DNA from: Acidobacteriaceae bacterium
GTDB lineage: Bacteria; Acidobacteriota; Terriglobia; Terriglobales; Acidobacteriaceae
Assembly (NCBI GenBank): GCA_028283655.1
Contig: JAPWKE010000003.1
Span: 558,001-622,000, forward strand
DNA length: 64,000 nt
Direction of reading: 5' to 3'
Below are positions 17,411-44,793 of the stretch, in pieces (within the stretch, counting starts at the first letter, position 1; each line of letters starts with the position of its first letter). Both the position numbers and the translations under genes were made by a program. The notes under the pieces were generated by a model, which searched no databases, was not told where the DNA came from, and worked only from the letters and a program-made list of their open reading frames with translations.

Positions 17411-17424
17411 CCAAGCAAACCACG

Positions 17425-17463
17425 TGTCGAGGGTTGCCAGGTGTACCTCTGCGATCCTCGACA
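17425..17463 (+). promoter_or_regulatory. Intercistronic stem-loop
   Basis: TGTCGAGG at 17425-17432 pairs exactly with CCTCGACA at 17456-17463 in the gap between the NHL protein and the next hydrolase. An inner AGGT/ACCT pair could extend it. It lacks a T run and ends 17 bases before the ATG at 17481, just before the GAGGA ribosome binding site. It may therefore attenuate expression or stabilise the transcript rather than terminate it. Confidence 0.4.
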
Positions 17464-17480
17464 ACCTGCAAAGAGGAAGT

Positions 17481-19135: not shown

Positions 19136-20776
19136 ATGACTCGAAAACTTCCAGCGACAGCGGTTCTTTCGTCGCTCTTACTCTTGCCGCTCACACAAAG
19201 CGCTCAGTCGCAGGAGATGAAGCCTGCAGTCCCAGCCGCTCGCATCATCAACGCAGATGTCCGTGCAGCGAAGCAGCCCGTCGACCGCTTCTTCGCTCTC
19301 TCTGTTGGCTCGGATTATCCGGGCACGCTGCGCCGCGCCGAGGACCAGGAACAGCTGAAGCTCGTGGTGAAGGAGCTCGGCTTCCGTTACCTTCGCTTCC
19401 ACGACATCTTCGATGACGTCCTCGGTACGGTTCACAAAACAGACCACGGGGTGACGTATGACTGGAAGGGCATTGATGCTCTCTATGATCAGCTTCTCGG
19501 CAAGGGAATCAAGCCATTCGTCGAGTTGGGATTCACGCCCTCAGCGTTGAAGACATCGGACCAGACGATCTTCTATTGGAAGGGCAATACCTCGCATCCG
19601 CAGCGCGATGGGTGGAACAGTCTCATCACTGCCTTCGTGACGCATCTCGAAGCGCGTTACGGCAAGGCTGAAGTGCGCTCGTGGTTCTTCGAGGTGTGGA
19701 ATGAACCCAACCTTGCCGGATTCTGGGAGGGTGCGGACCAGGCGGCCTACTTTCAACTCTTCGACGATACGAGCAATGCGATCAAGGCCGTGGACCCTTC
19801 GCTACGCGTAGGCGGCCCCGCAACGGCAGGCGGAGCGTGGCCGGATGCGTTTCTCGCTCATGTCAAGAAGAGCGGCGCGAAGGTAGATTTTCTCTCGACC
19901 CATACTTATGGCGTGGATGGCGGTTTCCTCGACGAGAACGGTGTTGCGGACACGAAGCTGTCGACATCGCCTGATGCCGTCCTTGGGGATGTCCGCAACA
20001 CGCGCAAACAGGTCGAAGCGTCCGCTTATCCGGGCCTGCCGATCTACTTCACGGAGTGGAGCACCAGTTACACCGATCGCGATCCGGTCCACGACGCATA
20101 CGTCAGCGCTCCATACATCCTTACGAAGCTGAAGGGCGCGCAAGGCTACGTGCAGGGCATGAGCTACTGGACCTACACCGACCTTTTCGAAGAGCCAGGG
20201 CCGCCGCCATCCTCGTTCCACGGAGGCTTCGGTCTGCTCAATCGTGAGGGGATTCGCAAGCCTGCGTTCTTTGCATACAAGTACCTGAACGCCCTGCAGG
20301 GGCTCGCGGTTCCTGTGGCCGATAGCGCCGCAATGATTGCAAAAGAGGGTGACGATGTTCATGCCGTGATCTGGAGCTTTGAGTTGCCTGATCAACATGA
20401 GAGTGATCATCCGTACTACACGAGGGTGCATCCTTCGCACGCCGTCGCACCGGTGAGCGTGAACCTCGAGCACATGCAGCCCAAGGAAACGTACAGCGTG
20501 GAGATTCATCGCACGGGCTTCCACGCGAACGATGCGTACTCGGCCTACCTGGAAATGGGAGCTCCGAAGGACCTCTCTCCCGCTCAGGTGCAGAAGCTCA
20601 ACGCGCTCACGGCAGACAAGCCTGAAAGCCGCAAGAGCCTCGTTGCCGACGCCGCAGGCACGCTGCACGTGGACTTCCCGATGAACTCGAACGACGTTGT
20701 GCAGCTCATTGTGACGCCGCTGCAGGAGGCATCGGCGAAGAACAAGATCGGCGCGGGAAGGCAGGTGAAGAACTAA
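19136..20776 (+). CDS. Exported beta-xylosidase, GH39
   Basis: The 546-residue protein has a signal peptide (cleavage near SAQSQ) and a GH39 barrel. FRYLRFHDIFDDVLG lies near the N-terminus, FFEVWNEPNLAGFW carries the proposed acid/base Glu190, HTYG is typical of GH39, and IYFTEWSTSY carries the proposed nucleophile Glu307. A C-terminal beta domain follows. GH39 enzymes release xylose from xylo-oligosaccharides (some are iduronidases; the neighbours favour xylosidase). It is preceded by a purine-rich GAGAGAGAAAAGGAAAG leader and its TAA overlaps the ATG of the GH1 gene by one base, so the two are translationally coupled. It probably acts in the periplasm on imported xylan fragments. Confidence 0.92.
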   Translation: MTRKLPATAVLSSLLLLPLTQSAQSQEMKPAVPAARIINADVRAAKQPVDRFFALSVGSDYPGTLRRAEDQEQLKLVVKELGFRYLRFHDIFDDVLGTVHKTDHGVTYDWKGIDALYDQLLGKGIKPFVELGFTPSALKTSDQTIFYWKGNTSHPQRDGWNSLITAFVTHLEARYGKAEVRSWFFEVWNEPNLAGFWEGADQAAYFQLFDDTSNAIKAVDPSLRVGGPATAGGAWPDAFLAHVKKSGAKVDFLSTHTYGVDGGFLDENGVADTKLSTSPDAVLGDVRNTRKQVEASAYPGLPIYFTEWSTSYTDRDPVHDAYVSAPYILTKLKGAQGYVQGMSYWTYTDLFEEPGPPPSSFHGGFGLLNREGIRKPAFFAYKYLNALQGLAVPVADSAAMIAKEGDDVHAVIWSFELPDQHESDHPYYTRVHPSHAVAPVSVNLEHMQPKETYSVEIHRTGFHANDAYSAYLEMGAPKDLSPAQVQKLNALTADKPESRKSLVADAAGTLHVDFPMNSNDVVQLIVTPLQEASAKNKIGAGRQVKN

Positions 20777-22224
20777 TGATTACAAGACGAACATTCAATA
20801 AGCTCGCGTCCTTCGCCTCTGTGCTCGCTTCGGCGAACCCGGCAAAGGCTCTGCTGACTCCGGAAGATTCGCGCGCCGCCCACGGCGCTTTGTTTCCGAA
20901 GGGCTTCTTGTGGGGAACAGCAACGGCCTCCTATCAGGTGGAGGGAGCGGTGAACGAAGATGGGCGCGGACCGTCGATCTGGGACACGTTTTCGCACACA
21001 CCGGGTAAGGTGCATGGCGGCGATACAGGCGACATTGCGGATGACTTCTTCCATCGCTATGCAAGCGATATCGCGCTGATGCGTGAGCTTGGGCTGAAGA
21101 CATTTCGCTTCTCGTTGTCGTGGTCGCGCATCTTTCCGACGGGATCTGGCAAGCCCAACCCCAAGGGGCTCGACTTCTACAACAAGTTGATTGATGCCTT
21201 GCTCGCGGCTGGCATTCAGCCATACTGCACGCTGTATCACTGGGACCTCCCACAGCCTCTACAGGACGCGGGCGGTTGGGAAAATCGCGACACGGCTCTC
21301 CACTTTGCGGACTACGCCAGCTATGTACTGCCGCGTCTCTCGGATCGCGTGAAGAACTTCATGACGATGAATGAGATCCGCACGTTCGTCGAACTCGGTT
21401 ATGGCATCGGCACACACGCTCCGGGACTCACCGTCGGGAGCAAGCGGCTCGCGCAACTCAATCACCATGCGGTGTTGGGGCATGGCCTTGCCGTGCAGGC
21501 TGCCCGTGCCCATGCCAAGCCCGGAACAAAGGTAGGCATTGCCGACAACATCGAAGCTACCTGCCCGATCCTTTCGTCGCCGGAAGAGATCGCTGCTGCA
21601 CGACGAGCCATGCGCGAGCAGAATGCGAGCTACCTCTCGGTGATTCTCGACGGGCGGTACAGCGATCTCTACCTGTCGAACCTGGGGCCGAACGCTCCGC
21701 ATTTCACTGACGATGAGCTTCGCATCATCCATTCACCGATGGACTATGTGGGCCTGAATATCTATCAGCCCACCTGGGTGCGGGCCGCTGACAATCGCGC
21801 GGGGTATGACAAGGTACCGAACCCTGGCTCTTATCCGCACATGGAGAGCCCGTGGCTCACGTTCGGCCCTGAGGCGATCTATTGGGGGCCAAAGCTTGTG
21901 CATGATCTCTGGAAGCCGCGAGAGATGTTCATCACGGAGAACGGTGCATCCTCTGCCGATGTGGTTGCGCCCAACGGCGAAGTCTACGACACCGACCGCG
22001 CCATGTATCTCCGCGCTTATCTGCTTCGCCTCCAGCAGGCAATCGCTGAAGGCGTTCCTGTGCGCGGGTACTTCCTTTGGAGTCTGCTCGACAACTTTGA
22101 ATGGGCCGATGGCTATGACAAGCGATTCGGTGTCACCTACGTCGACTTTGCAACGCAGAAGCGCACACCAAAGTTGAGTTCCAAGTTCTACAAACAGGTC
22201 GTCTCGACCAACGCTGTTGTTTGA
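20776..22224 (+). CDS. Tat-exported beta-glucosidase, GH1
   Basis: The 482-residue protein begins with a twin-arginine signal (TRRTFNK at residues 3-9, weakly hydrophobic core, cleavage near AKA). GH1 signatures follow: FLWGTATASYQVEGA, FRFSLSWSRIFP, YCTLYHWDLPQPL, the acid/base segment TMNEIRTF with Glu200, and the nucleophile segment FITENGAS with Glu388. Near the end is FLWSLLDNFEWADGYDKRFG, which binds the glycone. The usual NEP of the acid/base strand is NEI here. It probably hydrolyses beta-glucosides or cello- and gluco-manno-oligosaccharides after folding in the cytoplasm and export. Its start overlaps the GH39 stop, and the GH5 start follows its stop by 13 bp, all within the hemicellulose operon. 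Confidence 0.93.
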   Translation: MITRRTFNKLASFASVLASANPAKALLTPEDSRAAHGALFPKGFLWGTATASYQVEGAVNEDGRGPSIWDTFSHTPGKVHGGDTGDIADDFFHRYASDIALMRELGLKTFRFSLSWSRIFPTGSGKPNPKGLDFYNKLIDALLAAGIQPYCTLYHWDLPQPLQDAGGWENRDTALHFADYASYVLPRLSDRVKNFMTMNEIRTFVELGYGIGTHAPGLTVGSKRLAQLNHHAVLGHGLAVQAARAHAKPGTKVGIADNIEATCPILSSPEEIAAARRAMREQNASYLSVILDGRYSDLYLSNLGPNAPHFTDDELRIIHSPMDYVGLNIYQPTWVRAADNRAGYDKVPNPGSYPHMESPWLTFGPEAIYWGPKLVHDLWKPREMFITENGASSADVVAPNGEVYDTDRAMYLRAYLLRLQQAIAEGVPVRGYFLWSLLDNFEWADGYDKRFGVTYVDFATQKRTPKLSSKFYKQVVSTNAVV

Positions 22225-22237
22225 TCGGAGTGAATCG

Positions 22238-23368
22238 ATGAAGAGATATCTCAAGTTCGGACTGGCGTGTGTTGGTCTTGCCGGAAGTCTTGCGGCAGCA
22301 GCGCAGACGCCGCAGAATGCGTTGGCGTTCGAGCGTGCCGCGCATCTGAAGCACGGCATCAACACCAGTATCTGGTTCGCACAGTCGCCGAACAACTACA
22401 GCGTAGACCGACTCCGCACCTTCACTACGGAGAAGGACCTGCAACTCATCGCGAAGCTGGGTTTCGACCACATTCGTCTCAGCATCGATGCAGTGCCACT
22501 GACGGCGTGGCAGCATGATGACCCTGCAGGAAAGGCCTTTGTCGCGGAGTTGGATCGTGTAGTCGATGCTGCGATCGCGGATAAGCTCGCGGTCATCATC
22601 GATGTACATCCGGAGGACCCTTACAAACACGATCTTCTGCAAGGCGATGCCTCTATCAAGGCGCTCGATGATCTGTGGCATACGCTTGCGCAGCACTATG
22701 CCTCAAAGGGCGCGAGCGAGGTGTACTTCGAGCTGATGAATGAATCGCAGCAGACGGACGGAGTCCGGTGGGGAACTATCCAGGCCGGTCTTGTCGACAC
22801 TATCCGGAGCGTAGATAAGGTGCACACGATCATCGCGACGGGACCACACTGGTCAGGTCTTGAAGACCTTCTTAGCTCTGAACCACTCAAGGATTCCAAT
22901 GTCATCTACACCTTTCATGACTACGAGCCCTTCGCGTTTACGCATCAGGGTTCGACCTGGGCGATGTCCGAGCTACCTCCTTTGCGAGCGGTTCCGTACC
23001 CTGCAACGTTGAAAGACGTCAGCCCCAATTTGAATCAAGAGCCCTCGCTTCAAGGCAGGCTCTACGTGACAAAGTATGCGCTCGATCACTGGGACGCGAA
23101 GCGCATCGACGCCTTGCTCGCGTTTGCCGAAACGTGGTCGAAGGATCATGGCGTGCCTGTGTACTGCGGGGAGTTCGGTGTCTTCCGTCCTTACGCAGAG
23201 GCAAAAGATCGTCAGCGGTGGATTCGTGACACACGCACCTCGCTGGAGCGTCACGGCATCGGCTGGGCGATGTGGGATTACCAGACGGATTTCGGCCTTG
23301 TGACGAAGAAAGACGGTAAGACCGAAGTCGATAAGGGTGTGCTGAATGCACTCGGCCTCAAGGAATAG
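22238..23368 (+). CDS. Exported endoglucanase/endomannanase-type GH5
   Basis: I choose the ATG at 22238, seven bases after GGAG (22227-22230), because it opens directly into a signal peptide (MKRYLKF, cleavage near AAAQ). The ATG at 22217 overlaps the GH1 gene. The 376-residue mature-type protein shows GH5 features: FDHIRLSID near the N-terminus, VIIDVHPEDP, the acid/base segment ELMNESQQ with Glu169, TFHDYEPFAFTHQG, and the nucleophile segment VYCGEFGVFRP with Glu312, then WAMWDYQTDFGL at the C-terminus. GH5 covers endoglucanases, endomannanases and other beta-glycanases, and the subfamily was not resolved here. Within this operon it would cut backbone glycan chains. Confidence 0.9.
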   Translation: MKRYLKFGLACVGLAGSLAAAAQTPQNALAFERAAHLKHGINTSIWFAQSPNNYSVDRLRTFTTEKDLQLIAKLGFDHIRLSIDAVPLTAWQHDDPAGKAFVAELDRVVDAAIADKLAVIIDVHPEDPYKHDLLQGDASIKALDDLWHTLAQHYASKGASEVYFELMNESQQTDGVRWGTIQAGLVDTIRSVDKVHTIIATGPHWSGLEDLLSSEPLKDSNVIYTFHDYEPFAFTHQGSTWAMSELPPLRAVPYPATLKDVSPNLNQEPSLQGRLYVTKYALDHWDAKRIDALLAFAETWSKDHGVPVYCGEFGVFRPYAEAKDRQRWIRDTRTSLERHGIGWAMWDYQTDFGLVTKKDGKTEVDKGVLNALGLKE

Positions 23369-23448: not shown

Positions 23449-24972
23449 ATGATGGAAAAGAAGAATCGGCTAATAGGAATGGCGATGTTGCTCACCAGCC
23501 TCTGCTGTGCGGCGGGTCATGCGAGCGTGCGCTTGCCGCATCTGCTGTCGGATCATGCGGTGTTGCAGCGCGATCGCCCCATCCACGTTTGGGGATGGGC
23601 CTCGCCCAACGTGCGTTTAAAAGTGGCATTGCATGGACAGAGTAGTGAGACCCTAGCGAACCCGCTCGGCGAGTGGAGCGTCTATCTCAAACCTGAGAGT
23701 GCTGGCGGTCCCTATACGCTCTTGATCACCGGAGACGGTGAAGAGGTGAAGCTACAAGACCTTCTCATTGGTGACGTCTGGCTGGCTTCAGGACAAAGCA
23801 ACATGCAGTTCCCATTGCAAGGCTTCACGGGCGCTCCCATGAAAGATCAAGCTGCAGAGATTGCAGCTTCGACGCATCCGCGCATTCGTTTGCTGCGCGT
23901 GGAGCAGGGAGGCAGCGATACTCCGAAGGCCGATCAGCCGAGTGTCTGGAAAGAGTGCATTCCTGAGAATGCCAAAGATTTCTCTGCTGTCGCTTACTTC
24001 TTTGGCAGGGAAATCTCCGGCCTGCAGAACGTTCCCGTGGGATTGATCGACAGCGCCTATGGTGGAACGCCTGCGGACTCCTGGTTGTCACTGCACGCGT
24101 ATGGCGCGGACGCATCCCTGCAGCCCGCGCTGGCAACGTGGTCACGTTTCGCGGACGAACAAGCGAATCTGAGTGATGTGATCGCGATTGAGCGTGAAGA
24201 GGACGCGACCGCGGTGCGTGAGGGCAAGCCTAAGCCGTCGCATCCGTGGCATCCCTTCGCGCAGTCCTGGCAACCGTCCGCTCTCTACAACGCGATGATC
24301 GCTCCGTTGACTCCGTATGCGATTCGCGGATTCCTCTGGTATCAGGGCGAGACGAACTCTGCGCCGGATCGCGCACCGCATTATCAGAGCACGCTCAGTG
24401 CGTTGATTCGCGACTGGCGCAATCGCTTCGATCAAGGCAATCTTCCGTTTCTCTACGTGCAGATATCCAGCTTCTCATCGCCCAGCGAAGATTGGGCGAT
24501 GCTGCGCGATCAACAACGACGGGCTCTTGATAACGCGAATACCGCGATGTCTGTCACCATTGACGTCGGCGAAGCTACGAACGTCCATCCTGCGGACAAG
24601 CAGACGGTCGGAGCACGTCTTGCTTTAGCCGCGAGGCATCTCGTGTATGGCGAGAACCTCGTATCGAGCGGTCCGCTCTTTCGACAGGCGACGGCGGAGA
24701 TGAACGCCGACGGCTCGAAGAGCATGCGTGTCTGGTTCGATGATGCCCACAGCCTTTCCTCGCGTGGCGCGCCTCTGAGTTCGTTTGAAGTGGCAGGCGC
24801 AGATCACAAGTTCGTTCCCGCAGAAGCGGCGATCGAAGGCGATACGGTTCTGGTGAAAGCTGCCGCTGTTCAGGACCCTCGCTTCGTCCGTTTCGGCTGG
24901 AGCAGTGTGGTTGAGAGCAATCTCTACAACGAGGCCGGGCTTCCCGCCTCCACCTTCACCTCTGAGCCGTAA
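23449..24972 (+). CDS. Exported SGNH-type acetylesterase (sialate O-acetylesterase family)
   Basis: The 507-residue protein has a signal peptide (cleavage near GHAS) and the family start VRLPHLLSDHAVLQRD, an N-terminal Ig-like fold, and the catalytic block WLASGQSNMQF with the nucleophile Ser117. IDSAYGGTPADSW and GFLWYQGETNS follow, both characteristic of the SASA/DUF303 family, and NVHPADKQTVGARLA carries the catalytic Asp-His region. In polysaccharide loci these enzymes remove acetyl groups from xylan or other hemicelluloses; sialate is unlikely here. It follows the GH5 gene by 80 bp on the same strand. The ATG at 23449 has no strong ribosome binding site and one at 23452 is equally possible. 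Confidence 0.87.
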   Translation: MMEKKNRLIGMAMLLTSLCCAAGHASVRLPHLLSDHAVLQRDRPIHVWGWASPNVRLKVALHGQSSETLANPLGEWSVYLKPESAGGPYTLLITGDGEEVKLQDLLIGDVWLASGQSNMQFPLQGFTGAPMKDQAAEIAASTHPRIRLLRVEQGGSDTPKADQPSVWKECIPENAKDFSAVAYFFGREISGLQNVPVGLIDSAYGGTPADSWLSLHAYGADASLQPALATWSRFADEQANLSDVIAIEREEDATAVREGKPKPSHPWHPFAQSWQPSALYNAMIAPLTPYAIRGFLWYQGETNSAPDRAPHYQSTLSALIRDWRNRFDQGNLPFLYVQISSFSSPSEDWAMLRDQQRRALDNANTAMSVTIDVGEATNVHPADKQTVGARLALAARHLVYGENLVSSGPLFRQATAEMNADGSKSMRVWFDDAHSLSSRGAPLSSFEVAGADHKFVPAEAAIEGDTVLVKAAAVQDPRFVRFGWSSVVESNLYNEAGLPASTFTSEP

Positions 24973-25014
24973 GTGAAGCAAGAAGGATCAGCATTCGAGA
25001 TGAAAGGCACCATT

Positions 25015-27084
25015 ATGGATTCACTACTTCGTTTCGTCAGCCCTCGCCACTCCATGAGGCTGGGGCTACTTGTGACTATGCTCTGCGGCGTGATGGCGAC
25101 GCATATCTCGCTCTCCGCGCAGACTGCTCCCAGCGCATCTGCAGCACCGCTAGTGGAGAGGGCTGAGATACCAACCGGACTGACGCCAATCTCCGTGCAC
25201 AGCGTGGGCCGCACGAAGCTGGCAAGCGATGGTATGTACACCTATCAGTGGCCGGGAACGTACTTCCTTTTCGCCTACGAAGGGTCGGCTGTCTACTTCA
25301 AGGTGCAAGGCAAGCAGGACCTGCACATCTTTGTGGATGGACACAACACGGCACTTACAACCGACGGGCAGTCGTCGACCTATCGCATCTCGACCCCGAC
25401 CGGGGGAGCGCATGTCGTGCGCATCGACTCTGTGAACGAAAGTTCATGGGCACCGGAGCAGCTTGGTGGCTTCGCCGTTCCCGCAGGTGGCAAGGGAATC
25501 GACTTCCCGGTGAGCAAGCGGCAGATGGAGTTCATCGGGGACTCGCACACGGTTGGCTATGGCAATATGTCCCCCTCAAGAGAATGCACTGCAGACGAGT
25601 TGTTTGCTCGCACCGACACAACGCACTCGATCGGCGCGGATACAGCGCTGCATTACGGAGCGAACTATCAGATCAACGCCATCTCCGGTCACGGCGTGGT
25701 GAGGAACTACGATGGCGGAGCTGGTGATCCGGTGCCTGTCGCTTATCCGTTCCTGCTGCTGGACAAGAAGGAGAAGTACGACGATCCGAGCTGGAACCCG
25801 CAGGTCATCGTGATTGCGCTTGGTACCAACGATTTCTCCAATCCGCTTCACCCGAATGAGCCGTGGAAGAGCAGGGACGAGCTTCACGCAGCCTACGAGA
25901 AGACCTATGTTCAGTTCGTCGAGCAGGTGCGCAAGCGCAATCCCAAGGCGTTGATCGTCCTGTGGTCTACGAGCTACTCCAATGGAGAGATTGCTTCGGA
26001 GGTGCAAAAGGTACTCAGCACGTTGCATGCCGCGGGAGACAAGCGTGTGGACTTCGTTCAGATCGGTGATCTGTCGATGTCGGCATGTCACTACCATCCG
26101 TCTGCGTCGGATGATCTGCTCATCAGCGGCAAGCTGATTCAGGATATTGATTCTCACCCGGATGTGTGGCCGGATGGTCATGCTCCGATCAAGGCACCGA
26201 AGCAGACCCAGACCGTATCGAAAGTGGAAGTCCCTGCAGGAAAGGCACCTCTTGCGATCACGTGGGATGATCTTCCTGCTCATGGCGAGCTGCCGAAGGG
26301 ACTCACGCGGCTGGAGCTCACGAACGAGATCATCAAGGCTTTGCGCGACGAGCATGTACCTCCCGTCTACGGCTTTGTGAACGGAAGTATCACTGCATGG
26401 GAGCCGCAAAGCGAAGCTGTCTTTCGTGCTTGGACGGAAGCAGGAAACCTGCTCGGGAATCACACGTGGTCGCATATGAATCCAGGCGACCACACCACCG
26501 CGGAGTACAAAGCCGACATCGACAAGAACGAACCTCTGCTCAATCACTGGATGGAGAACAAAGACTGGCATTGGTTCCGCTACCCATTCCTTGCGGAAGG
26601 CAAAACGCCGGAGCAGCAGAAAGAGATTCGGTCTTACCTTTCAGAGAAAGGCTACAAGATCGCTGCTGTGACGCTTAGCTTTCCCGATTACAACTGGGAT
26701 GCACCCTATGTTCGCTGTCTTGCGAAGAATGACACCGCGCAGGTTGCGAAGTTGGAAGACGAGTATCTGAAGGCCGCGCGTGATGCGGCGCTCTACTCTC
26801 GGAAGCTCTCTTCCACTCTCTACGGGAAGGACATCCCCTATGTTCTTCTGCTGCATGTGGGGCCGCTCGACGCGAAGCTTCTTCCTCGAACTCTTGCTCA
26901 GTTTCGAGAGATGGGTTTCAGTTTCGTTCCCTTGGACCAAGCTGAGTCGGATCCGTTTTACGAAGCAGACACGAACCCGCAGATGCCCGGCAATTCATCC
27001 TCTCTCGTGGGAGAAGCCTACAAGCGAGGATCCGCGTTGCCGCCTGCACCGACGTTCCCGGATTTGGAAAAGGTCTGCCGCTAG
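25015..27084 (+). CDS. Fusion esterase: CE2-like SGNH hydrolase plus CE4/NodB deacetylase
   Basis: I prefer the ATG at 25015 (AAAGG at 25003-25007) to the GTG at 24973 directly after the upstream stop. The 689-residue product starts with a signal peptide (hydrophobic about 15-33). Residues about 45-385 form a CE2-like esterase: N-terminal jelly roll, then FIGDSHTVGYG with Ser177, ALGTND (Asp273) and a histidine pair HYH about 359-361. Residues about 405-640 form a NodB/CE4-like domain: TWDDLP (Asp418, Asp419), NHTWSHM (His483, His487) for metal binding, and FRYPFL. Both halves would deacetylate glycans, so the fusion may strip different acetyl decorations of xylan or glucomannan. It ends the operon. 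NodB motifs match weakly at the C-terminal active-site His. Confidence 0.86.
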   Translation: MDSLLRFVSPRHSMRLGLLVTMLCGVMATHISLSAQTAPSASAAPLVERAEIPTGLTPISVHSVGRTKLASDGMYTYQWPGTYFLFAYEGSAVYFKVQGKQDLHIFVDGHNTALTTDGQSSTYRISTPTGGAHVVRIDSVNESSWAPEQLGGFAVPAGGKGIDFPVSKRQMEFIGDSHTVGYGNMSPSRECTADELFARTDTTHSIGADTALHYGANYQINAISGHGVVRNYDGGAGDPVPVAYPFLLLDKKEKYDDPSWNPQVIVIALGTNDFSNPLHPNEPWKSRDELHAAYEKTYVQFVEQVRKRNPKALIVLWSTSYSNGEIASEVQKVLSTLHAAGDKRVDFVQIGDLSMSACHYHPSASDDLLISGKLIQDIDSHPDVWPDGHAPIKAPKQTQTVSKVEVPAGKAPLAITWDDLPAHGELPKGLTRLELTNEIIKALRDEHVPPVYGFVNGSITAWEPQSEAVFRAWTEAGNLLGNHTWSHMNPGDHTTAEYKADIDKNEPLLNHWMENKDWHWFRYPFLAEGKTPEQQKEIRSYLSEKGYKIAAVTLSFPDYNWDAPYVRCLAKNDTAQVAKLEDEYLKAARDAALYSRKLSSTLYGKDIPYVLLLHVGPLDAKLLPRTLAQFREMGFSFVPLDQAESDPFYEADTNPQMPGNSSSLVGEAYKRGSALPPAPTFPDLEKVCR

Positions 27085-27594
27085 CGGGCGAGGCGTGTCA
27101 ATGTTGATCCAGCATAACCTGCTGCCTTCACAGGCGGCAGGCCATTGCCTTCGACGCCACGTTTGAGCAACCGCTCAGCGAGTGTTGAGAGCTTCTCCGG
27201 ATCATTGTGTTGACTATGGACGATCTGCATCTGGCGCACCGTGAAGCGCACCGAAACGCAGCGTCCACGTTTGACCAGCGTCAGTGCGTCGCCAGCCAGA
27301 CGAGGTGACTTAAGAGTGCCAGGAGCCCCCCGGCCCCGCCTTGCGGGAGGGTTGGTTAGGGACGTTATGAAGGGGACCCGGCTATGTTGAGAATCTCCAA
27401 TTGAGGTCAAAATGCACTTCGCCGACCCAGTAATTGACCGCACATTGGCGACACTCGCGCCGCAGTTGGCTACAAACCAACGTGGGTCAAACTTGGGTCA
27501 GATTTGGGACGGTTATGTGTTCTCTCGCGTTCAGCTAGGTTCGTTGTGTATCGAAAAATGCCCGTAACTGATTGAAGATTGCCCGGTCAGCATT
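27085..27594. other. Non-coding junction between the carbohydrate locus and a tRNA fragment
   Basis: No gene can be supported here. A minus-strand frame of 120 codons (27081-27443) and a plus-strand frame of 51 codons starting at 27412 are open, but neither shows a domain, a ribosome binding site or conserved-looking motifs. The stretch has a GC-rich block near 27325-27350 and then drifts to lower GC. It looks like decayed sequence at the end of an island, next to the tRNA-Ala fragment. Confidence 0.45.
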
Positions 27595-27639
27595 TTCGCA
27601 ACGAGGAGGTCAGCGGTTCGATCCCGCTCAGCTCCACCA
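27595..27639 (+). other. 3' half of tRNA-Ala: probable island attachment site (attR)
   Basis: Positions 27595-27639 read as the 3' part of a tRNA-Ala from the anticodon loop onward: TTCGCAA (anticodon CGC), variable region, an intact T-arm AGCGG-TTCGATC-CCGCT, the acceptor strand CAGCTCC and an encoded ACCA. Upstream of the loop the sequence no longer pairs, so there is no anticodon stem, D-arm or 5' acceptor. A perfect hairpin follows immediately, as after a native tRNA gene. Tyrosine-recombinase elements that target tRNA genes leave exactly such a 3' copy at the far end, while the intact gene is rebuilt beside the integrase. The island would therefore lie to the left. Confidence 0.7.
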
Positions 27640-27641
27640 AC

Positions 27642-27665
27642 AACATCAAGCGTTCGCTTGATGTT
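27642..27665 (+). terminator. Hairpin after the tRNA-Ala fragment
   Basis: AACATCAAGCG at 27642-27652 and CGCTTGATGTT at 27655-27665 are perfect reverse complements around a TT centre. The position directly after the tRNA 3' end suggests it is the tRNA's original terminator or processing structure. It has no long T run. Confidence 0.55.
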
Positions 27666-27784
27666 CCACGAAGAAAATCATTCGCCTAATTCATCGTTAT
27701 TCTCCAGTGGTTGCGTATTTTCGGCGCAGAGATTACGCCGTATGCCCGGCTGTGGCCGATGTATTCACGCTATGAAGCTTCTGC

Positions 27785-27819
27785 GAAAAAAGAGGCCCAT
27801 GCTGCATGCATGGGCCTCT
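27785..27819 (-). terminator. Rho-independent terminator of the propeller lipoprotein gene
   Basis: AGAGGCCCATGC at 27791-27802 pairs perfectly with GCATGGGCCTCT at 27808-27819, with a five-base loop. On the minus strand the stem is followed by a run of six T (A run at 27786-27791). It lies 24 bp downstream of the stop of the minus-strand gene at 27844. Confidence 0.88.
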
Positions 27820-27843
27820 CTTTGTACGGGGTTTGCTATGAGG

Positions 27844-30171
27844 TTAGGGCTTCATCCCGAGAGTGCCGTTCGCGGCGCCAACGGAGAGTGGTGTGACCAG
27901 CGGAACGCCTGCACCAACGAGTTCCAGAATGCCGGTGCCGGTGCTGCTGTTTTGCCCGATCCAGACATTGCCAGTCGGGTCCACCGCGAGGCCGCGAACT
28001 CCCAGGGGCAGCAACGTAGCTGGCTTCTGGAAGCCGCCTGTCGAGACCCCGTAGCCGCCAGTGCCAGAGGCTGAAGTGGGTGAGAGTGCATCCCCTGCGG
28101 CGCTGACCTCGCTCACCGAGAAGAGCCCGCTTGTGGTGGCACCGCTGACCCAGTTGCCGGTGGCTGCGGTGGTATTGCCTTCCCACTGATTGCCCGCTCC
28201 GTCGACGGCTACGCCGCGTGTCGAGAGGATGCCGCCGAACCCGACGGCGCTCACTGACGCGGTTGCCTGTCCAGGCGTCGCGGCGGTGGGGGTGACTGTG
28301 CTCCAGCGGTAGCTGTTACCTGCGCTCCCGGACCCCGCGCCATTGGCCGAGTAGATGATGCCGTTCGGGCCAACGGCCACACCGTAGGGGTTGTAGATCG
28401 TGGGTGTGGAGCCGGTGAGGTTTGCCGAGAGGGTCGCGATGTTGGACGTTTCGAAGCCGGCGTGCGTGCCGTCGCTTGTTCCGGAGGCGTAGGTTGCGGC
28501 GGTGGTGTCGTTGCTTGGGTAGATCTGAAAGAACCCTTCGGCTGACGGGGTCCCGACGTGGACGATTGCAACCCAGAGGTTGTCGGAGCTGTCGACGGCC
28601 ATGAAAGTGGGCAGGGAGAAGACGGTTGCGATCTGTTGCGTAGAGATATTGGTGGGGGTAGAGCCTGCGACGCCTGCACCGGCTAACTCATTCACTGAGC
28701 CAGCGGTGGTACTGAAGGTTGTGGGCGAGGTGGAGGCAGAGTAGAAAATGTTTCCGTGTCCGTCCGCCACAATGGCCTGTGGTGCCGCCGTGGAAGAGGT
28801 TATCCAGGTGGAGTCAAGTGTGCTTGCCGTCGGGCTCCACTTCAAGAGGTTGTAGTTGGAGTCGACCTTGGACCCGGAGGCGACCCAGACGTAGCCTGCG
28901 GGGTCGATGGTGAGGCCAGTGGCGATGGGCGCGGCTCCACCGAGGCCGCAGGTGAGTGGCGTTCCCGTGGAGGAGATTTCGAAGAGGTTGCCAGCGGTGG
29001 CGATGTTAGCTCCCCACACGTTTCCATTGGCATCAATGGTCGGGTTGTTGACCCCGTTGAGGAACTTCGCCGTGCTGGTGGTACCGGCACCGGACTTGAG
29101 CGTGCAGGTGTTGGTGCTGCTGTAGAAGACGCCGACAGTCCAATCAGTGGGAGCCGTACTGTACGTGGGCTGGAATGGAGCAACTCCCGTGGGCAGGTCG
29201 AAGAGCGCGTTCATGTTTGTGGCGCTCTGGCCGCTTGAGGGGTTCGTCAGCATGAAGTAGAGTGCCTGAACCGTATCTTCGTTCTCTGCGGTAATGGTGG
29301 AGAAATCCTGCATCGGCTGGCTGGTAAACGAGGCTACAGGTGGCACCGCGCTTGCGAAGAGCGTGGTGCAGGCGCTGGCGGCGTTGCTGGTGTTGTTCAC
29401 ACAGGCAGCGAGAATGTTTGCCAGCAGATTGACCTTTGTCGTTTCAGGCGTGATGGTGACGGTAATGTTGCTGGAAGAGCCGTCAGGAGTGGCCGTGCTG
29501 GTGTTGCTGGTGACGGCGGCGCCTGTAGCGATGTTGGCAAGGTTGCTGATCGCGGCAACGCCGTTTGCAAAGCCAGTCGCTGCCTGCGCCGTATTGGGAT
29601 AGCCGAAGGATTCTGTAGCGGGGTTGAAGTACTGTTGCAGCCCGGCCATGGTAGCGACGGAGGTGACTTCATTCATGTTCACCAGAAGCGAAGCGACGGT
29701 GCTGCACTTGCCAAGCGCAATCACGAACGCAGCAGCAGAGTTTGTGCCATTGCCCACGCCCTGGGTTTCGCCACCACGTGCGACGAGGTACATCTGCGGA
29801 TCGGAGTCGGCTGTGTTGCCGGTCGGGCAGGTGTAGCTGGAGGTCAGCGGTGTAACTGGACCGGAAGTTGGCGAAGAGCCTGGCGTGAGCTGGGTAAACG
29901 CAAAGTTACCCGAAGGTGCAGCGGAGGTGGTAACGGCATAGGCCGTGGCTGTGGAGCCGTAGCCTGAGGTGCCAGCGGCGTAGAGGGTGACCGTTGCGCC
30001 GATGATGGGCTGATTGCCGCCATGTACGTTGCCGCTCATGGCTCCCCCTTGAACAAAGGAGTTGCCGCCCGAGACGGTGGGGCTAAGGCCGGTGCTGCAG
30101 CCAGCAAGCAGAGAGAGTGTCAGAGCGGTGGCCGGGACGAGAAGGCGACCGAAGAGCGAGAAGCTGGGCAT
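27844..30171 (-). CDS. Lipoprotein with beta-propeller (NHL-like) repeats
   Basis: The ATG at 30171 is preceded by AGGAG seven bases upstream, which outweighs the in-frame start at 30222. The 775-residue product has a lipoprotein signal: hydrophobic 8-22 and lipobox LLAGC with Cys25. After a Ser/Gly-rich section comes a beta domain (about 50-110, NQPIIGATVTLYAAGTSGYG) of carboxypeptidase-regulatory type. A helical middle part follows (about 150-290, with paired Cys), then a C-terminal propeller with repeats such as PTIDANGNVWGANI, GLTIDPAGYVWVASG, GVAVDGAGNQWEGN and GLAVDPTGNVWIGQN (about 370-770). I infer a surface-anchored binding protein. It stands alone with its own terminator, divergent from regulator B across about 500 bp. 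Confidence 0.85.
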   Translation of the reverse strand: MPSFSLFGRLLVPATALTLSLLAGCSTGLSPTVSGGNSFVQGGAMSGNVHGGNQPIIGATVTLYAAGTSGYGSTATAYAVTTSAAPSGNFAFTQLTPGSSPTSGPVTPLTSSYTCPTGNTADSDPQMYLVARGGETQGVGNGTNSAAAFVIALGKCSTVASLLVNMNEVTSVATMAGLQQYFNPATESFGYPNTAQAATGFANGVAAISNLANIATGAAVTSNTSTATPDGSSSNITVTITPETTKVNLLANILAACVNNTSNAASACTTLFASAVPPVASFTSQPMQDFSTITAENEDTVQALYFMLTNPSSGQSATNMNALFDLPTGVAPFQPTYSTAPTDWTVGVFYSSTNTCTLKSGAGTTSTAKFLNGVNNPTIDANGNVWGANIATAGNLFEISSTGTPLTCGLGGAAPIATGLTIDPAGYVWVASGSKVDSNYNLLKWSPTASTLDSTWITSSTAAPQAIVADGHGNIFYSASTSPTTFSTTAGSVNELAGAGVAGSTPTNISTQQIATVFSLPTFMAVDSSDNLWVAIVHVGTPSAEGFFQIYPSNDTTAATYASGTSDGTHAGFETSNIATLSANLTGSTPTIYNPYGVAVGPNGIIYSANGAGSGSAGNSYRWSTVTPTAATPGQATASVSAVGFGGILSTRGVAVDGAGNQWEGNTTAATGNWVSGATTSGLFSVSEVSAAGDALSPTSASGTGGYGVSTGGFQKPATLLPLGVRGLAVDPTGNVWIGQNSSTGTGILELVGAGVPLVTPLSVGAANGTLGMKP

Positions 30172-30674
30172 CAGAGATCTCCTGGAAACAGGACGCACAG
30201 GAAGAAAGTCACAGTGGGTCACGAGGAGCGTAGCTCTGGATCTGCAGCGGAGGTACGAGAATCACAGTGGCAACACGGGGAGCTTGTGGCCGCACTTTTC
30301 GGACGAAGCGGCAGAACTGAATTGACGGTGCGCATGCGTGTCATGGAGCGAAGCGTTCATCCTCTCGTCATAGAGTTGCGTTGAAAGAATCTCGAACTGC
30401 GATGATGTTGAGCCATCATTCTTTGTTTTGTCATGAAGCTGTAACTCTTGGCAGGGTGTGCTGGCATATTCACCATGAGTTCATGGTGGAAGGGGGTGAG
30501 CTGTCTTAGCCTTGAGAGCACGCAAGAGATTTTTTTACGCCGGAATTGTCTTTGGGAAATGAAGGATTAGTCCTTACTTTTCGCGCTTTCTCACGGGTGA
30601 AGAGCGGCGTCGGAAAGAAAATTCCGCAGGTGCGGTAAGCGGACGAGTTATATATCGCAAGAAGGAACGGAAAG
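30172..30674. promoter_or_regulatory. Divergent promoter region between propeller lipoprotein and regulator B
   Basis: About 500 bp without a supported gene separates the two divergent starts. Its one clear signal is an 18-bp perfect palindrome at 30471-30488 (CACCATGA-GT-TCATGGTG), placed roughly midway. A weaker inverted pair ATGATG/CATCAT lies near 30402-30419. The last 100 bases are AT-rich before AAGGAACGGAAAG, the ribosome binding region of regulator B. Confidence 0.45.
30471..30488. promoter_or_regulatory. 18-bp palindrome, candidate operator
   Basis: CACCATGA at 30471-30478 and TCATGGTG at 30481-30488 are exact reverse complements around GT. Such symmetry in a divergent promoter region suits a dimeric regulator, most simply regulator B. 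A two-base centre makes a stable RNA hairpin unlikely, which favours a DNA-binding site. Confidence 0.5.
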
Positions 30675-31970
30675 ATGTCCAGCGAGCTAGGGGAGATCGA
30701 AGTTTCAACGGCCGAGACTGTAGAGAACGGACTTGAAGCGATGAAGCGTGTGCTCGCAAGCAGAAGCTTTGCGCGTGCACCAAGGCTTTGTTCGTTCCTG
30801 CAATACATCGTGGAGAAGTCAGCCGAAGGTGATGTCGAGAGCTTGACCGAGCAGCAGATTGGAATTTATATCTTCCAGCGGCGGCCTGGCTATAACTCAA
30901 ACGATGACAACATCGTGCGCGGAACGGCGAGAGCGCTACGGCAACGGTTGGCAACGTACTACCTCACCGAGGGCGCAGGGGACTCGCTGCGGATCGAGAT
31001 TCCAAAGGGCGCGTACGTGGCGCATTTTGTCGAGCTGCCGATTGAGCAAGAGGCGGTTCCCTCCGAAATCCTGCAGGCCGTAGAGCCTCCTCCTCCGCCT
31101 GTTCTGGAAGAGGTCGCCGTCGTACCTGCAACTCGGCGTCGTCTGGCATGGTTCGGGTGGGCTGTAGCGTTGGCGTGCGCGGCTGTAGCGGTGTGGCCAT
31201 ATGCGCATGAGCGTTGGGTGGAGGCGCATGACCCGGGCCACTTATTGTGGCGAACGTTGTTCTCTCTGGAACGGCCAACGTATCTGGTCGCCGGCGATGC
31301 AGGCTTGAATATGTACGAGACGCTGGGTGGTCGAACGGTCGCACTCCCTGAGTACTCTCAGCAGTTTTATGCGGACAGTCTGAAGCCCGACGCGACACTC
31401 GTGGACAAGCTTGGAACTCGGTTTTACACGCCGATGTCAGATTTACAGTTGGTGTCGAACCTGGTCCGTTTGCCGGAGGCTGCTCGGAACCATGTAAATG
31501 TACGGTTCGCACGCGACCTCGCGGCAAGCGACATCAAGGACGCGAACCTGGTGTTGATGGGCACGCGAAGCTACAACCCATGGACGGAGTTATACAAGTC
31601 GCAGCTAAGTCTGCAGATGAACTGGGATGGCGCGGAAGATACGTTCACTGTGATAAACCGCATGCCGCTGCCAGGCGAGGAGTCCTCTTACGAGTGGAGC
31701 GTGCGACGGGGCGCGAAAGGCGCGTTGACGTTGATTTCTTTGACTCACAATCCGCAGGGAAGCGGGCGCGTCCTACTGGCGGAAGGAACAACGATGGCCG
31801 CGATGTTTGCAGCGACAGACTTCCTCTCCAACAAGCAGTTGCGCGATCCAATCTTGCTGCGGGCAAAGCACTCCGACGGCACATTGGGGGACTTTGATGT
31901 GTTGCTGCAGAGCGACTTCATTCGAGAAGGTGTGAGCAACTTGAAAGTGCTGGCCGTACACATCCGGTAG
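30675..31970 (+). CDS. Regulator B: membrane-anchored winged-helix sensor-like protein
   Basis: The 431-residue protein is a paralogue of regulators A and C. Residues about 18-118 repeat the winged-helix-like pattern: FLQYIVEKSA, a degenerate GIYIFQRRPGYNSNDDNI in place of EVFGR, the helix VRGTARALRQRLATYY and the wing LRIEIPKGAYVAHF. A Pro/Glu-rich linker leads to a membrane helix at about 157-175. The extracytoplasmic part (about 180-431) contains RPTYLVAGDAGLNMYE, DANLVLMGTRSYNPW and an ending similar in plan to A and C (FIREGVSNLKVLAVHIR). The ATG follows AAGGAACGGAAAG. It is divergent from the propeller lipoprotein gene and convergent with the efflux operon. A regulatory role is inferred from fold pattern and position. 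Confidence 0.78.
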   Translation: MSSELGEIEVSTAETVENGLEAMKRVLASRSFARAPRLCSFLQYIVEKSAEGDVESLTEQQIGIYIFQRRPGYNSNDDNIVRGTARALRQRLATYYLTEGAGDSLRIEIPKGAYVAHFVELPIEQEAVPSEILQAVEPPPPPVLEEVAVVPATRRRLAWFGWAVALACAAVAVWPYAHERWVEAHDPGHLLWRTLFSLERPTYLVAGDAGLNMYETLGGRTVALPEYSQQFYADSLKPDATLVDKLGTRFYTPMSDLQLVSNLVRLPEAARNHVNVRFARDLAASDIKDANLVLMGTRSYNPWTELYKSQLSLQMNWDGAEDTFTVINRMPLPGEESSYEWSVRRGAKGALTLISLTHNPQGSGRVLLAEGTTMAAMFAATDFLSNKQLRDPILLRAKHSDGTLGDFDVLLQSDFIREGVSNLKVLAVHIR

Positions 31971-32003
31971 GTCTCTCGATACAAGCGTGAAGCAGAAAAG
32001 AAG

Positions 32004-32040
32004 CGGCCGAGGCACGCGTTGAACGCATATCCCTCGGCCG
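32004..32040. terminator. Convergent terminator hairpin
   Basis: CGGCCGAGG at 32004-32012 pairs perfectly with CCTCGGCCG at 32032-32040 around a 19-base loop, between the convergent stops of regulator B and the TolC-family gene. On the minus strand it is followed by a T-rich stretch (CTTCTTTTCTGC), so it mainly serves the efflux operon and may act in both directions. Confidence 0.65.
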
Positions 32041-32053
32041 TTAGTCCTTGCAG

Positions 32054-33496
32054 CTACTGTCCGGTCTGGTAGCGGATAGCGGCCAGCGATCCCTGGTACG
32101 AGTAGCGAGCGCTGGTGAGCTGTATCTGCGCTTGCGTATCGAGCAACTGGGCCTGCGAGAGTTCCACTATGGAGCTTAGCCCCAGATCGTAGCGTGTCTT
32201 CGCCAGCTTCAACGCCGTGGACGACTGCTGAGCAAGTTGCTCCGCAACGGCTATACGGTTGAAGTTTGACTGCGCCTGTAGAACAGTCGTTGTCACGTCG
32301 CGAGCGATGGTGTCGTGTGCCTGCCGAACGTGCTCATCCGCGGCCTTCGCTTGGAGCTTGGCTTCGTTGTAGCGTGCGCTATATAGGAAGCCGTTGAAGA
32401 CCGGCACGGAGAGGTTAACCCCGACGGCGCCGTAGACATTTTGCGTGATCTGCCCGTCATGTGTGGGTGCTGTACCGACGGCACCGAGTGCGCTGATCGA
32501 AGGAAGGGAAAGGTTGTGTTCAGCCTTTGCAAAGTTATGCTCGGCCTGTGCTGTCTGGTTCAGACTTCGGAGATCCGGGCGTGACTTGAACGCAAGTGTG
32601 ACGAGCGGTGCGGCTTCCGCTGGAGGAAAGGCTGGATGGTTGGGTGTCTCGTCGACGAGACGGTAGACGGTGGAGTTTTCATCGCCGAGCAGCGCTGAAA
32701 GTGCTGCCTGGGCTTCGACCGAGTTATTGCGTGCATCGAGCAGTTGAAGCTGGGCCTGTGCGAGGTCTGCGTTGGCAAAGCTCAGGTCGAGTGTGGAGCG
32801 AAGACGAGCCTTGGTAAGTGCGCCGATCTGATTTGCTGTTGCACGACGTGTGCGAACGTTCTGCTGTGCGACTCCGATAAGCGCCTGGGCCCCGAGTGCA
32901 CGGTAGAAGGTAGTTTCAACCGCAAAGAGAATGTCGTCGTGTGTGGCGGCGAGTGTGCTATCTGCCGCCTTGGCTCGCAGACTTGCCGATGCGACGAGGT
33001 TGCGTGTCCGTCCGAAATCTGTGAGCAGTTGGTTGAGCGTAGCGCCGAAGGCGGCGCGTGTGTAGAGCACAGGGTTGTTGAGCGCGCCGGCGGTGAGTCG
33101 GCCTCCGTTATCGGCCTGCACGGCGGTGGCAGCCGCACTGAGCGTCGGCATGTAGGCGGCGCGGTTCTCCCGCGTAACTTCACCTTGCGCGAGAGCGGTA
33201 AGGCGAGCGATGTTGATACGCGGGTTGTGCGCCAACGCAAGCTGTTCGGCCTGCGCAAGCGTGAGAGTGGGGGCGTCGGCCGGGACGACTGGTGTATTCG
33301 ATTGGTCGAAGCTGTCCGGCAGTTCGTGAATGCGCGGCTCAACGCCCGGTGGCGTTGGCTGCTGCGATGCAGGTTGTTGCTGAGGCTGTGCTGCAGGCGC
33401 ACCGTTATCGGTGGTGACAGGAGTGGTGGTCACCTGCGCCGAAGCGAAAGTGACCAAAGCGAAGGGGAGAAGCAGCCGCGTCGAGAAGATAGACAT
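32054..33496 (-). CDS. TolC-family outer-membrane efflux protein
   Basis: The 480-residue protein has a signal peptide (cleavage near ASAQ) and a Pro/Gln-rich N-terminus, followed by the two-repeat outer membrane efflux fold. LTLAQAEQLALAHNPRI starts the first repeat, and long Ala-rich coiled helices carry Gln/Asn at intervals (about 95-250 and 290-470). The late segment TRYDLGLSSIVELSQAQ is typical of TolC-like proteins. It forms the outer-membrane channel of a tripartite pump. Its ATG overlaps the stop of the RND permease gene by one base, showing translational coupling, and it is the last gene of the operon. Confidence 0.93.
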   Translation of the reverse strand: MSIFSTRLLLPFALVTFASAQVTTTPVTTDNGAPAAQPQQQPASQQPTPPGVEPRIHELPDSFDQSNTPVVPADAPTLTLAQAEQLALAHNPRINIARLTALAQGEVTRENRAAYMPTLSAAATAVQADNGGRLTAGALNNPVLYTRAAFGATLNQLLTDFGRTRNLVASASLRAKAADSTLAATHDDILFAVETTFYRALGAQALIGVAQQNVRTRRATANQIGALTKARLRSTLDLSFANADLAQAQLQLLDARNNSVEAQAALSALLGDENSTVYRLVDETPNHPAFPPAEAAPLVTLAFKSRPDLRSLNQTAQAEHNFAKAEHNLSLPSISALGAVGTAPTHDGQITQNVYGAVGVNLSVPVFNGFLYSARYNEAKLQAKAADEHVRQAHDTIARDVTTTVLQAQSNFNRIAVAEQLAQQSSTALKLAKTRYDLGLSSIVELSQAQLLDTQAQIQLTSARYSYQGSLAAIRYQTGQ

Positions 33497-36400
33497 TAGA
33501 CCGCCTCCGCGAGTGTTTCGCCGTGCGGTTGCAGCGGCCGGTTGCGATGGATGAGAAGGTACGCCGCGGGCACGATGAAGATGGTCGCCAGCACCGAGAA
33601 GGAGAGTCCGCCAATGATGGCGCGTGCCAGCGGAGCATACTGCTCAGAGCCTGCTTCGAGAGCAAGCGCCATGGGGATCATGCCGAGGATGGTGGCGAGG
33701 GAGGTCATCATGATGGGACGCAGACGAACGCGGCACGCAGTGGCAGCTGCCTCTTCGATAGGCATGCCCTCCAGGCGTAGCGCTCGTGTGAACTCTACGA
33801 TGAGGATGGAGTTGGAGACGACGATGCCGGTCATCATCACAACGCCCATCAGGCTCATGACGTTGAGCGTCGTGTGCGTGAGGAGCAGGAACAGCACCAC
33901 ACCCGCGAGCCCAGGAGGGATCGCCAGCAGGATGATGAGCGGGTCAAGGAACGAGGAGAACTGCGCCATCAGCACGAGATACACGAGGATGACCGCGAGG
34001 ATGAGTCCAACGCCGAAGCTTGTGAAGGACTTGTGCATCCCATCGACCGCGCCGCGTGTGGTGACGATGAGGCCATGTGGGATGGGGGTTGCGTCAACAA
34101 CCTTCTGCACGCGTTTCGCCGTGCCGGCAAGGTCTTCGGTGGAGGGTGAAACGTAGAGGTCGATAACGCGGCGGATCTGGTAGTGGTCCACTTCTGTCGG
34201 TGTCGTGACCTCTGTGATCGTCGTTGCTGCTCCAAGGTTGGTGTCAGACTTTGACCCGCGTGCCGGGGTTGCCATGAATGGGTTGGAGGTTGCCGCACCG
34301 AGGTTCCGTGCCGTGAGAGGAATCTGCTGGAAGTCGGTGAGAGACTTCACCGCACTTTCGGGATACTGCACGGTGAGCAGATAGTTGTTGCCACTCTTGG
34401 GATCGACCCAGTACGTTGGCGCGATCATGCCGTTGGAACTGAGCGCGGTGATGACGTTGTCGATAACTTCCTTCGAGTCGAGCCCGAGACGTGCGGCGAT
34501 CTCGCGGTTCACATCGAGACGAAGGCCCGGGTAGTTGACGTCCTGCGGGATCAGAACGTCGGAGACGCCCTTGACGTTACGCAACTTCGCCGCAAGCGTT
34601 GCTGCCGTAGCGTAAGCCTGCTGCAGGTCCTTGCCGCCGACCTGAATGTCGATCGGTGCAGGCATACCCATATTCACAACCGAATCGACGAGGCCGCCGG
34701 TCTGGAAGTAGGTGCTGAGTTCAGGCAGATCGTCGCGAAGCTTGGCGCGTACCTTGTCGATGTAATAGAAGCTCGACTTGGAATGCTCTTCCTTGAGCGA
34801 GACCTGCACGAACGCCGTGCTCATCGTGGAGTTCGGTGTGTAGATCGCTGAGAAGTCCGGCGTGATGCCGATGTTGGAGACGATCATGTTGAGGTCCTTG
34901 GCCGGGACCACGGAGCGGATGTCGCTTTCAACGCGTGCGATGTACTTATCCGTCAGTTCGATGCGCGTGCCAGCCGGAGCTTTCACGTTGATGACAAACT
35001 GTCCGGGATCCGTACGCGGGAAGAACGACATACCGAGGAATGGGAAAAGCGACAGCACACACGCAATGACGATGCCTGAGATCGCGAGTACACGCTTCGG
35101 ATGTTTGAGCGCGCGTCGGATGGCGCGGTCGTAGTGCATGAGGCAACGGTCGTACGCCTGGTTGAAGCGACGTACGAATCGTTGGAAGAGGCTGATGCCG
35201 TCGTGGTGTCCAATCTCATGATGCACGTTCTTGATGAACTTCGCGCAGAAGAGCGGAACGACTGTCATGGCCGAGGTATAGCTGGCAAGGATGGAGAGCA
35301 CAACGGCCAGCGCCAGAGCGACGAAGAGGAAGCGGCTGACGCCGTAGAGGAAGATGACAGGAAAGAAGACGATAGCTGTTGTGAACGTAGCGGCGAGCAC
35401 AGGCAGCGTAACTTCGCGACCGCCGATCTCTGCGGCCTCGCGTGCTGGTTTCCCCATCTCCATGTGACGGAAGATGTTTTCGAGCACGACCACGGAGTCG
35501 TCGATGAGTCGTGAGAACGCAAGTGCCAGTCCGCCAAGCACCATCGAGTTGATCGTCATGCCGAGCATGTTGAGCACGATGAACGCAGCGAGTGCTGACA
35601 GCGGAATGGAGAGCATCACTGCGATCGTCGCCTTGCCGTTACCAAGGAAGATGAGAATCATCGACGCGATCAGCACCAGGCCGATAAGACCTTCAGAACC
35701 CAAATTCTTGATCGCGGTTTTGACGAAGACAGACTGGTCGAAGACCACCTTCGCTTTCAGCGTGGAGGGAATGTCGAGCAGGTGTTTGAGTGCTTCTCGA
35801 ATACCGTTGACGACGGAGATGGTGTTGGAGCCGCCACCTTGTTTCAGGATCGGCAGGTACACCGACTTCTGCCCATCAATGCGGACAATGTTTGTCTGGA
35901 TTGCGCTGGCGTCCTTGGCATAGCCAATGTCGGAGATGAGCAACTGTCCGTTGCCGACAGTGCGCAGCGGAAGACGATCGATCTCCTGCGTCGTCGGCAG
36001 CTGCGAGTTGGTGTAGATGTTGTAATCCTTGGGTCCGATGCGGACGTCACCAGCAGGAAGGATAGCGTTTGCAGAGTTCAGTGAACGTACGACATCCATC
36101 GGCGAGAGCTGATGCGCTTCAAGCTTGATGGGGTCGACGTAGACCTGAATCTGGCGATACTTGCCACCGAAGGGCTGAGGCACAGAGGCACCGGGAACAT
36201 TGGCGATCTGGTTGCGAACGGTATATTGGCCAAGATCGTGAAGCTGGGTCTCATTCAGCCCCGCGCCCTTGAGCGTGATGAGGCAAACGGGCAGCGAACT
36301 GGCGTCGAACTTCAACACCACGGGAGGAAGTGTGCCGGGTGGCAATCTTCTCAACTGCGCCATGGCCAGGTTGGAGATCGTGCCAACGGCTGCGTCGGCG

Positions 36401-37938: not shown

Positions 37939-38130
37939 GAGTTTTTGGGCGCTCTTGGGCAAAGTAGGGAACAACGTACTCGCGATTGAGACACCGAAAC
38001 GGTGCCTGCTTATCGCGCAGAGATGCGAGTGGAATGCCTGCAGTACCGCACAGAGATCAGCAACGCAGAAGGCGCAGAACAGCGTTCCAAAGCGAACGCT
38101 GAACAGAGCGCACAGCGGTGGCTGAGCGGT

Positions 38131-38487: not shown

Positions 38488-38534
38488 GGGAGAAGTGTAG
38501 CACGCATATCGCGAGGCGACTGAAGTGAACGTGA

Positions 38535-38573: not shown

Positions 38574-38588
38574 GGGTTTTCTCGAAAG

Positions 38589-43329: not shown

Positions 43330-43364
43330 CTGTCGGCAAAAGGCGAAGAACACGAGAGGCATGG

Positions 43365-44774: not shown

Positions 44775-44793
44775 AAACGCTGCTCTCGCAAAT

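Follow-up and report, generated by a model that had tools for sequence, protein, structure and literature searches.

A displaced tRNA-Ala(CGC) 3′ half as the probable right end of a 30.1-kb island carrying a hemicellulose operon, in tandem with a second island at the same tRNA gene

The presence of half a tRNA gene beside a hemicellulose operon raises the question of whether the operon is an ordinary part of the chromosome or the cargo of an integrated element. The window analyzed here is the whole stretch of 64,000 nucleotides (C3:558001–622000) from an Acidobacteriaceae genome of 4.27 Mb in five contigs. The 45 bases at positions 27595–27639 on its plus strand (C3:585595–585639; TTCGCAACGAGGAGGTCAGCGGTTCGATCCCGCTCAGCTCCACCA) are an exact match to the 3′ half of tRNA-Ala(CGC), from the anticodon loop to the CCA end, and because ARAGORN and Rfam called no tRNA at this place, the sequence there is a fragment, as a first-pass annotation made from the window had proposed. 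The hairpin described in that annotation directly 3′ of the fragment was also found, with a 10-bp stem (27642–27665, plus strand); it belongs to the chromosomal side or is a relic of an older element, the 60 bases downstream of the fragment folding at −15.8 kcal/mol and the hairpin being without a T-run. Judging from the sequence comparisons given below, it is highly probable (about 0.93) that 27595–27639 is the attR of a 30.1-kb island (E2), inserted by a tyrosine integrase into the 3′ half of tRNA-Ala(CGC) and lying in tandem with another island (E1).

When up to three mismatches are allowed, the 45-base core has exactly three copies in the genome, all on the plus strand (C3:547282, 555509, and 585595; copies 1, 2, and 3, respectively), and a control search with the reversed pattern gave no match genome-wide. 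Copy 1 belongs to an intact tRNA-Ala(CGC) gene (C3:547251–547326), 10.7 kb left of the window, and forms its 3′ half; copy 2 is a tRNA fragment 2.4 kb left of the window, and copy 3 is the fragment in the window. The stretch shared by every pair of copies is 45–46 bp long and starts sharply at the first base of the core, with unrelated flanks, and hairpins of different sequence follow copies 1 and 2 as well. Right of 27639, no degenerate fourth core was found in the window (up to three mismatches in 25 bases). The three same-strand copies therefore delimit two islands in tandem, in the order of intact tRNA, E1, copy 2, E2, and copy 3. E1 extends over 8.2 kb from the intact tRNA to copy 2, and E2 over about 30.1 kb from copy 2 to copy 3 (C3:555509–585639), with positions 1–27594 being its part between the window edge and copy 3. 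Each island has its own integrase gene on the minus strand: that of E1 (431 aa, C3:547262–548557; Phage_integrase, E = 1e-20) lies directly right of copy 1, and the different one of E2 (406 aa, C3:555586–556806; Phage_integrase, E = 2e-19) lies 32 bp from copy 2 and 1.2 kb left of the window. The first-pass annotation had supposed that the cargo island starts beyond position 1, with a complete tRNA-Ala(CGC) and an integrase at its left end. The search left of the window did find the complete tRNA with the same 45 bases, together with tyrosine recombinases, and the integrase is at the left end of the cargo island; the intact tRNA, however, is not, this end being the tRNA fragment at C3:555509, separated from the intact gene by the 8.2-kb E1.

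As to the mechanism, the last 45 bases of the tRNA-Ala(CGC) gene would have been present as a copy in the attP of E2, and recombination between attP and the tRNA gene would rebuild the tRNA at one end and leave the displaced 3′ half at the other. E1, with its different integrase, would have used the same core; excision and transfer are presumed steps for both islands. Because the cores are identical, the order of insertion is not readable from the layout, and either order of E1 and E2 yields the same structure.

The genes left of tRNA-Ala(CGC) encode a uracil-DNA glycosylase and a DUF2076 protein, and both also flank the same tRNA in relatives. In 20 stretches from 17 relatives, which extend at most about 17 kb beyond the tRNA, none of the cargo was found at the site except for single genes, such as a GH1 gene in G021 (L072, G021:C111), which is 64% identical to the cargo GH1 and located 796–2247 bases after tRNA-Ala. 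The nearest relative (G024) has the glycosylase, the DUF2076 protein, and the intact tRNA, followed by orthologues of 46897–48174 and 52990–56445 (67% and 86%, respectively), and is without both islands at the site. It was rejected as a clean empty site, since its tRNA is followed by a scar consisting of a sequence similar to the left arm of E2 and a piece similar to the integrase C-terminus. The comparison with empty sites that the first-pass annotation had suggested gave the tRNA without the cargo in relatives, but not a perfectly clean empty site, G024 keeping the attL-like scar, which weighs against the island reading. Synteny of the right flank was likewise discarded as a simple empty-site test, the right flank being variable in the genus. 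The 19.3 kb right of copy 3 (27640–46896), in which a propeller protein, a 431-aa protein, an RND efflux operon, and an LssY-type protein are encoded (the propeller and efflux genes at 27844–37974) and which have no recognizable far end of an island, are also missing in G024 between the tRNA and the next shared gene; this stretch is either an older third unit or was lost in G024 along with an island of its own. It is conceivable, though rather doubtful, that copy 3 at the same time bounds on the left a third element, older and decayed, spanning about 27640–46896. The stretch missing from G024 beyond its tRNA scar, as far as the next shared gene, would fit such an element, as would the copy-3 hairpin (TCAAGC-GTTC-GCTTGA), which resembles the post-tRNA hairpin of G002 and G006 (TCAAGC-AGTTA-GCTTGA/GTTTGA), whereas no integrase remnant was seen right of copy 3, the window holds no further tRNA fragment at the threshold given above, and a loss in G024 is an equally good explanation.

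The genes accompanying the integrases bear on what kind of elements E1 and E2 are. The left part of E2 in the window encodes a RepA-like AAA_25 ATPase (365 aa, cut by the window edge; 1–1040, minus strand; C3:557943–559040), a stand-alone XRE regulator (77 aa; 1554–1787, minus strand), an RmrT-like protein (176 aa; 2917–3447, plus strand; PADLOC RmrT, E = 2e-11), an RmrA-like XRE-ImmA protein with Peptidase_M78 (403 aa; 3579–4790, plus strand; PADLOC RmrA, E = 1e-128), and an ArsC-like fragment of the low molecular weight phosphatase fold (109 aa; 4805–5134, minus strand). The ATPase, the XRE regulator, the XRE-ImmA protein, and the arsC fragment had all been named in the first-pass annotation; the RmrT/RmrA-like pair (2917–4790) is a candidate toxin–antitoxin or defence module on E2. 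The other genes of E1 are those for HTH_17 excisionase-like proteins, a Prim-Pol/AAA_25 primase-helicase, and an XRE protein. On the backbone of both islands, PHROGs and Pfam found only genes for integration, replication, and regulation, and their main ORFs gave no Pfam match to a relaxase, a coupling protein, or type IV secretion, a result that weighs against the island reading. We consider it unlikely that E1 and E2, instead of being integrative islands, are defective prophages or phage satellites: the integrase, excisionase-like, and primase/helicase genes do resemble phage families, and the Prim-Pol/AAA_25 protein of E1 has relatives in phage records at about 30% identity, but no capsid, terminase, portal, or tail gene was detected among the larger ORFs of E1 and E2 scanned with PHROGs and Pfam. 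Primase-helicases are known also from integrative plasmids and satellites, and E1 is possibly a satellite. The integrase gene of E1 runs into the tRNA, with the last residues encoded by the tRNA antisense strand; the tail reads ...SLRTRRSPS in the integrated form (431 aa) and would read ...SLRIQGVTLDGEMPDDTE in the predicted circle form (440 aa), and integration therefore rewrites the tail of this integrase.

The ends of the two islands are paired by repeats in the arms adjoining the core, independently of the tRNA match. E2 has three GGGTCA repeats in its left arm (C3:555583, 555612, and 555623) and two, 11 bp apart, in its right arm (27484–27489 and 27495–27500, plus strand), namely at +30, +59, and +70 after copy 2 and at −111 and −100 before copy 3. 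Among the 17 plus-strand occurrences of GGGTCA in 92 kb, five are located in the two 150-bp arms of E2 (binomial P of about 2e-9, for a motif chosen after inspection). A different sequence, TGTGTCGT, with six plus-strand occurrences, is common to the arm after copy 1 and the arm before copy 2; GGGTCA does not occur in the E1 arms, nor does TGTGTCGT in the E2 arms. Because each island thus has repeats of its own at its two ends, the reading as one island is excluded in its simplest form. A composite of 38 kb, extending from the intact tRNA to the window fragment with a single integrase and with copy 2 as an internal leftover, is very improbable; copies 1 and 3 do bracket the whole stretch, and their recombination could in principle remove both units, but each unit carries a separate integrase next to the end on its tRNA side, and by their arm repeats copy 1 goes with copy 2 and copy 2 with copy 3, never copy 1 with copy 3. 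In the tandem arrangement of E1 and E2, the expected binding sites of the 406-aa integrase of E2 are the core, inside the 45 bp, and the GGGTCA repeats of the two arms.

The attR arm adjoining the core (taactgattgaagattgcccggtcagcatt; 27565–27594, plus strand) has similar counterparts on the left side of the displaced fragments of two relatives, G002 and G025, with a looser resemblance in G001, and GGNACAATAA repeats are present in both arms of G002 and G001, at distances nearly the same as those of GGGTCA in E2. Elements that target different tRNAs also have repeats of the form GGG-NN(N)-CA, spaced comparably from the tRNA end (attL arms L082–L085, L087, L093, L095, L125, L127, L128, and L133); for this motif, chosen post hoc, the enrichment is about 20-fold relative to the next 1 kb, and its letters vary independently of the targeted tRNA. 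We tentatively suggest that related Acidobacteriaceae integrases might use a fixed arm layout (approximately +30, +59, and +70) with varying letters after GGG (GGGTCA, GGGTCCA, GGGAACA, GGGTGCA, and GGGTACA, independent of the tRNA targeted), which would let different islands stand in tandem on one tRNA core without cross-recognition of their arms. The identity of the integrase N-terminal domains did not clearly track the arm motif.

The same tRNA site is used in relatives. Of 61 relatives, 26 have the core, intact or displaced (up to three mismatches), and almost all of these belong to the same genus. Full-length E2-like integrases are located beside tRNA-Ala(CGC) in SZAS-4 (61% identity), Granulicella sp. 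L46 (G001; 55–57%), and the Edaphobacter MAG RYN_3 (52%, broken by frame changes), and partial or broken copies adjoin the tRNA-Ala(CGC) core in G002, G014, G022, and G025. Integrases with 43% or less identity to that of E2 adjoin tRNA-Pro, Val, Asp, Glu, Lys, or Ala(GGC), and the association of the E2 integrase with tRNA-Ala(CGC) is thus specific to its subfamily. A second same-strand core is located 70.7 kb away in G002 and 159.5 kb away in G001, with islands of 71 kb and 159 kb, respectively. The integrases, arm repeats, and similar left arms in relatives therefore mark the window copy as the attR of the E2 integrase family and not as a random scrap of tRNA; the assignment of the fragment to the end of a tRNA-targeting element, made in the first-pass annotation, agrees with this, as an integrase-bearing element with the TonB/GH operon ends there. 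In the plasmid collection, the integrase had distant matches only, all below 60% identity. Two closely similar attL arms in G025 (L070 and L071), one after an intact and the other after a displaced core, suggest a tandem pair of related islands in that genome. In G009 (L148, G009:C12:230835–240943), the region 20–30 kb downstream of tRNA-Ala(CGC) encodes two TonB transporters together with a homologue of the 447-aa protein described below, perhaps as further cargo of this site.

The cargo begins with two minus-strand genes, those for a GH2 enzyme with β-mannosidase-type Ig domains (5222–7849) and for a 447-aa protein without a family match (7911–9254), which is probably the "regulator A" of the first-pass annotation. 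On the plus strand follow a TonB-dependent outer-membrane transporter (OMP_b-brl_4 and carboxypeptidase-regulatory domain; 9500–13471), an NHL-repeat/Ig-like operon protein (13535–17410), a 552-aa operon protein with no family assigned (17424–19082), a GH39 β-xylosidase matching Caulobacter-type β-xylosidase structures (19136–20776; PDB 4m29, E = 5e-219), a GH1 enzyme (20776–22224), a GH5 enzyme with CelC-type endoglucanases as its nearest solved relatives (22217–23368), a SASA-type carbohydrate acetylesterase (23449–24972), and a CE2-type esterase fused to a polysaccharide deacetylase (24973–27084). The GH39 and GH5 matches, the esterases, and the GH2 enzyme suggest that the substrate may be an acetylated hemicellulose of the xylan or mannan type. 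This hemicellulose operon (TonB transporter, GH39, GH1, GH5, esterases, and GH2) is the cargo of E2, lying between copies 2 and 3 as the first-pass annotation had placed it inside an island. In support of the island reading, the CE2–deacetylase occurs in full length only in this genome among 61, matches elsewhere being confined to the deacetylase part (51% identity or less), and the 552-aa protein has no counterpart in the rest of the genus other than two matches at 35% and 32%. Its best relative, 51% identical, is in another genus of the family (G348), where the transporter, the NHL protein, the 552-aa protein, and GH39 have homologues in a rearranged locus. The G+C contents of the cargo (58%) and the flanks (60%) are close, which counts against the island reading. 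It is hardly credible that the fragment is a chance or duplicated tRNA piece and the GH operon an ordinary chromosomal locus: single homologues of some cargo genes do occur elsewhere in relatives (e.g., GH1 with 65–70% DNA identity) and the G348 locus has no tRNA in the stretch read, but the exact 45-bp copies come with integrases and paired arm repeats, and the operon is not at the site in the relatives read.

According to a survey of Acidobacteria, it is not clear whether metabolic genes came in with mobile elements (PMC5900883), and our literature search on such islands in Granulicella or Acidobacteriota found nothing specific. E2 shows, with cleanly mapped boundaries, carbohydrate genes carried by a tRNA island in Acidobacteriota: the whole hemicellulose operon lies within exactly mapped island ends, in a tRNA reused repeatedly by related genomes, and the horizontal spread of plant-fibre degradation in these soil bacteria is therefore directly testable. 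Integrative elements of Bacteroidota can carry transporter and glycoside-hydrolase loci as mobile cargo. E2 resembles them in carrying both a transporter and glycoside hydrolases, whereas it belongs to another phylum, its TonB transporter has no SusD partner that was seen, and no conjugation module was found. Among the features by which Islander defines a tRNA-targeted island, those present here are an intact tRNA with a 3′ fragment in the same orientation and, in E1 and E2, an integrase between the tRNA/fragment pair; so are those of its tandem arrays, each member having its own fragment and integrase, with the arms pairing accordingly. Islander counted 125 arrays of two or more among 3919 islands (PMC4383910), and E1 and E2 share with its islands the regenerated tRNA, the displaced 3′ fragment, and the integrase in each unit; they are the same in principle as its arrays, whereas the Acidobacteriaceae host and the hemicellulose operon cargo are unlike the usual examples. 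Salmonella genomic island 1 is likewise reported to form tandems via common attachment sites (PMC2297512); its tandem consists of two copies of one element, whereas E1 and E2 are unrelated and have different integrases at one tRNA core. Altogether, the arrangement is that of a classical tandem tRNA-targeted genomic island, valuable for its precisely mapped ends and for what it carries.
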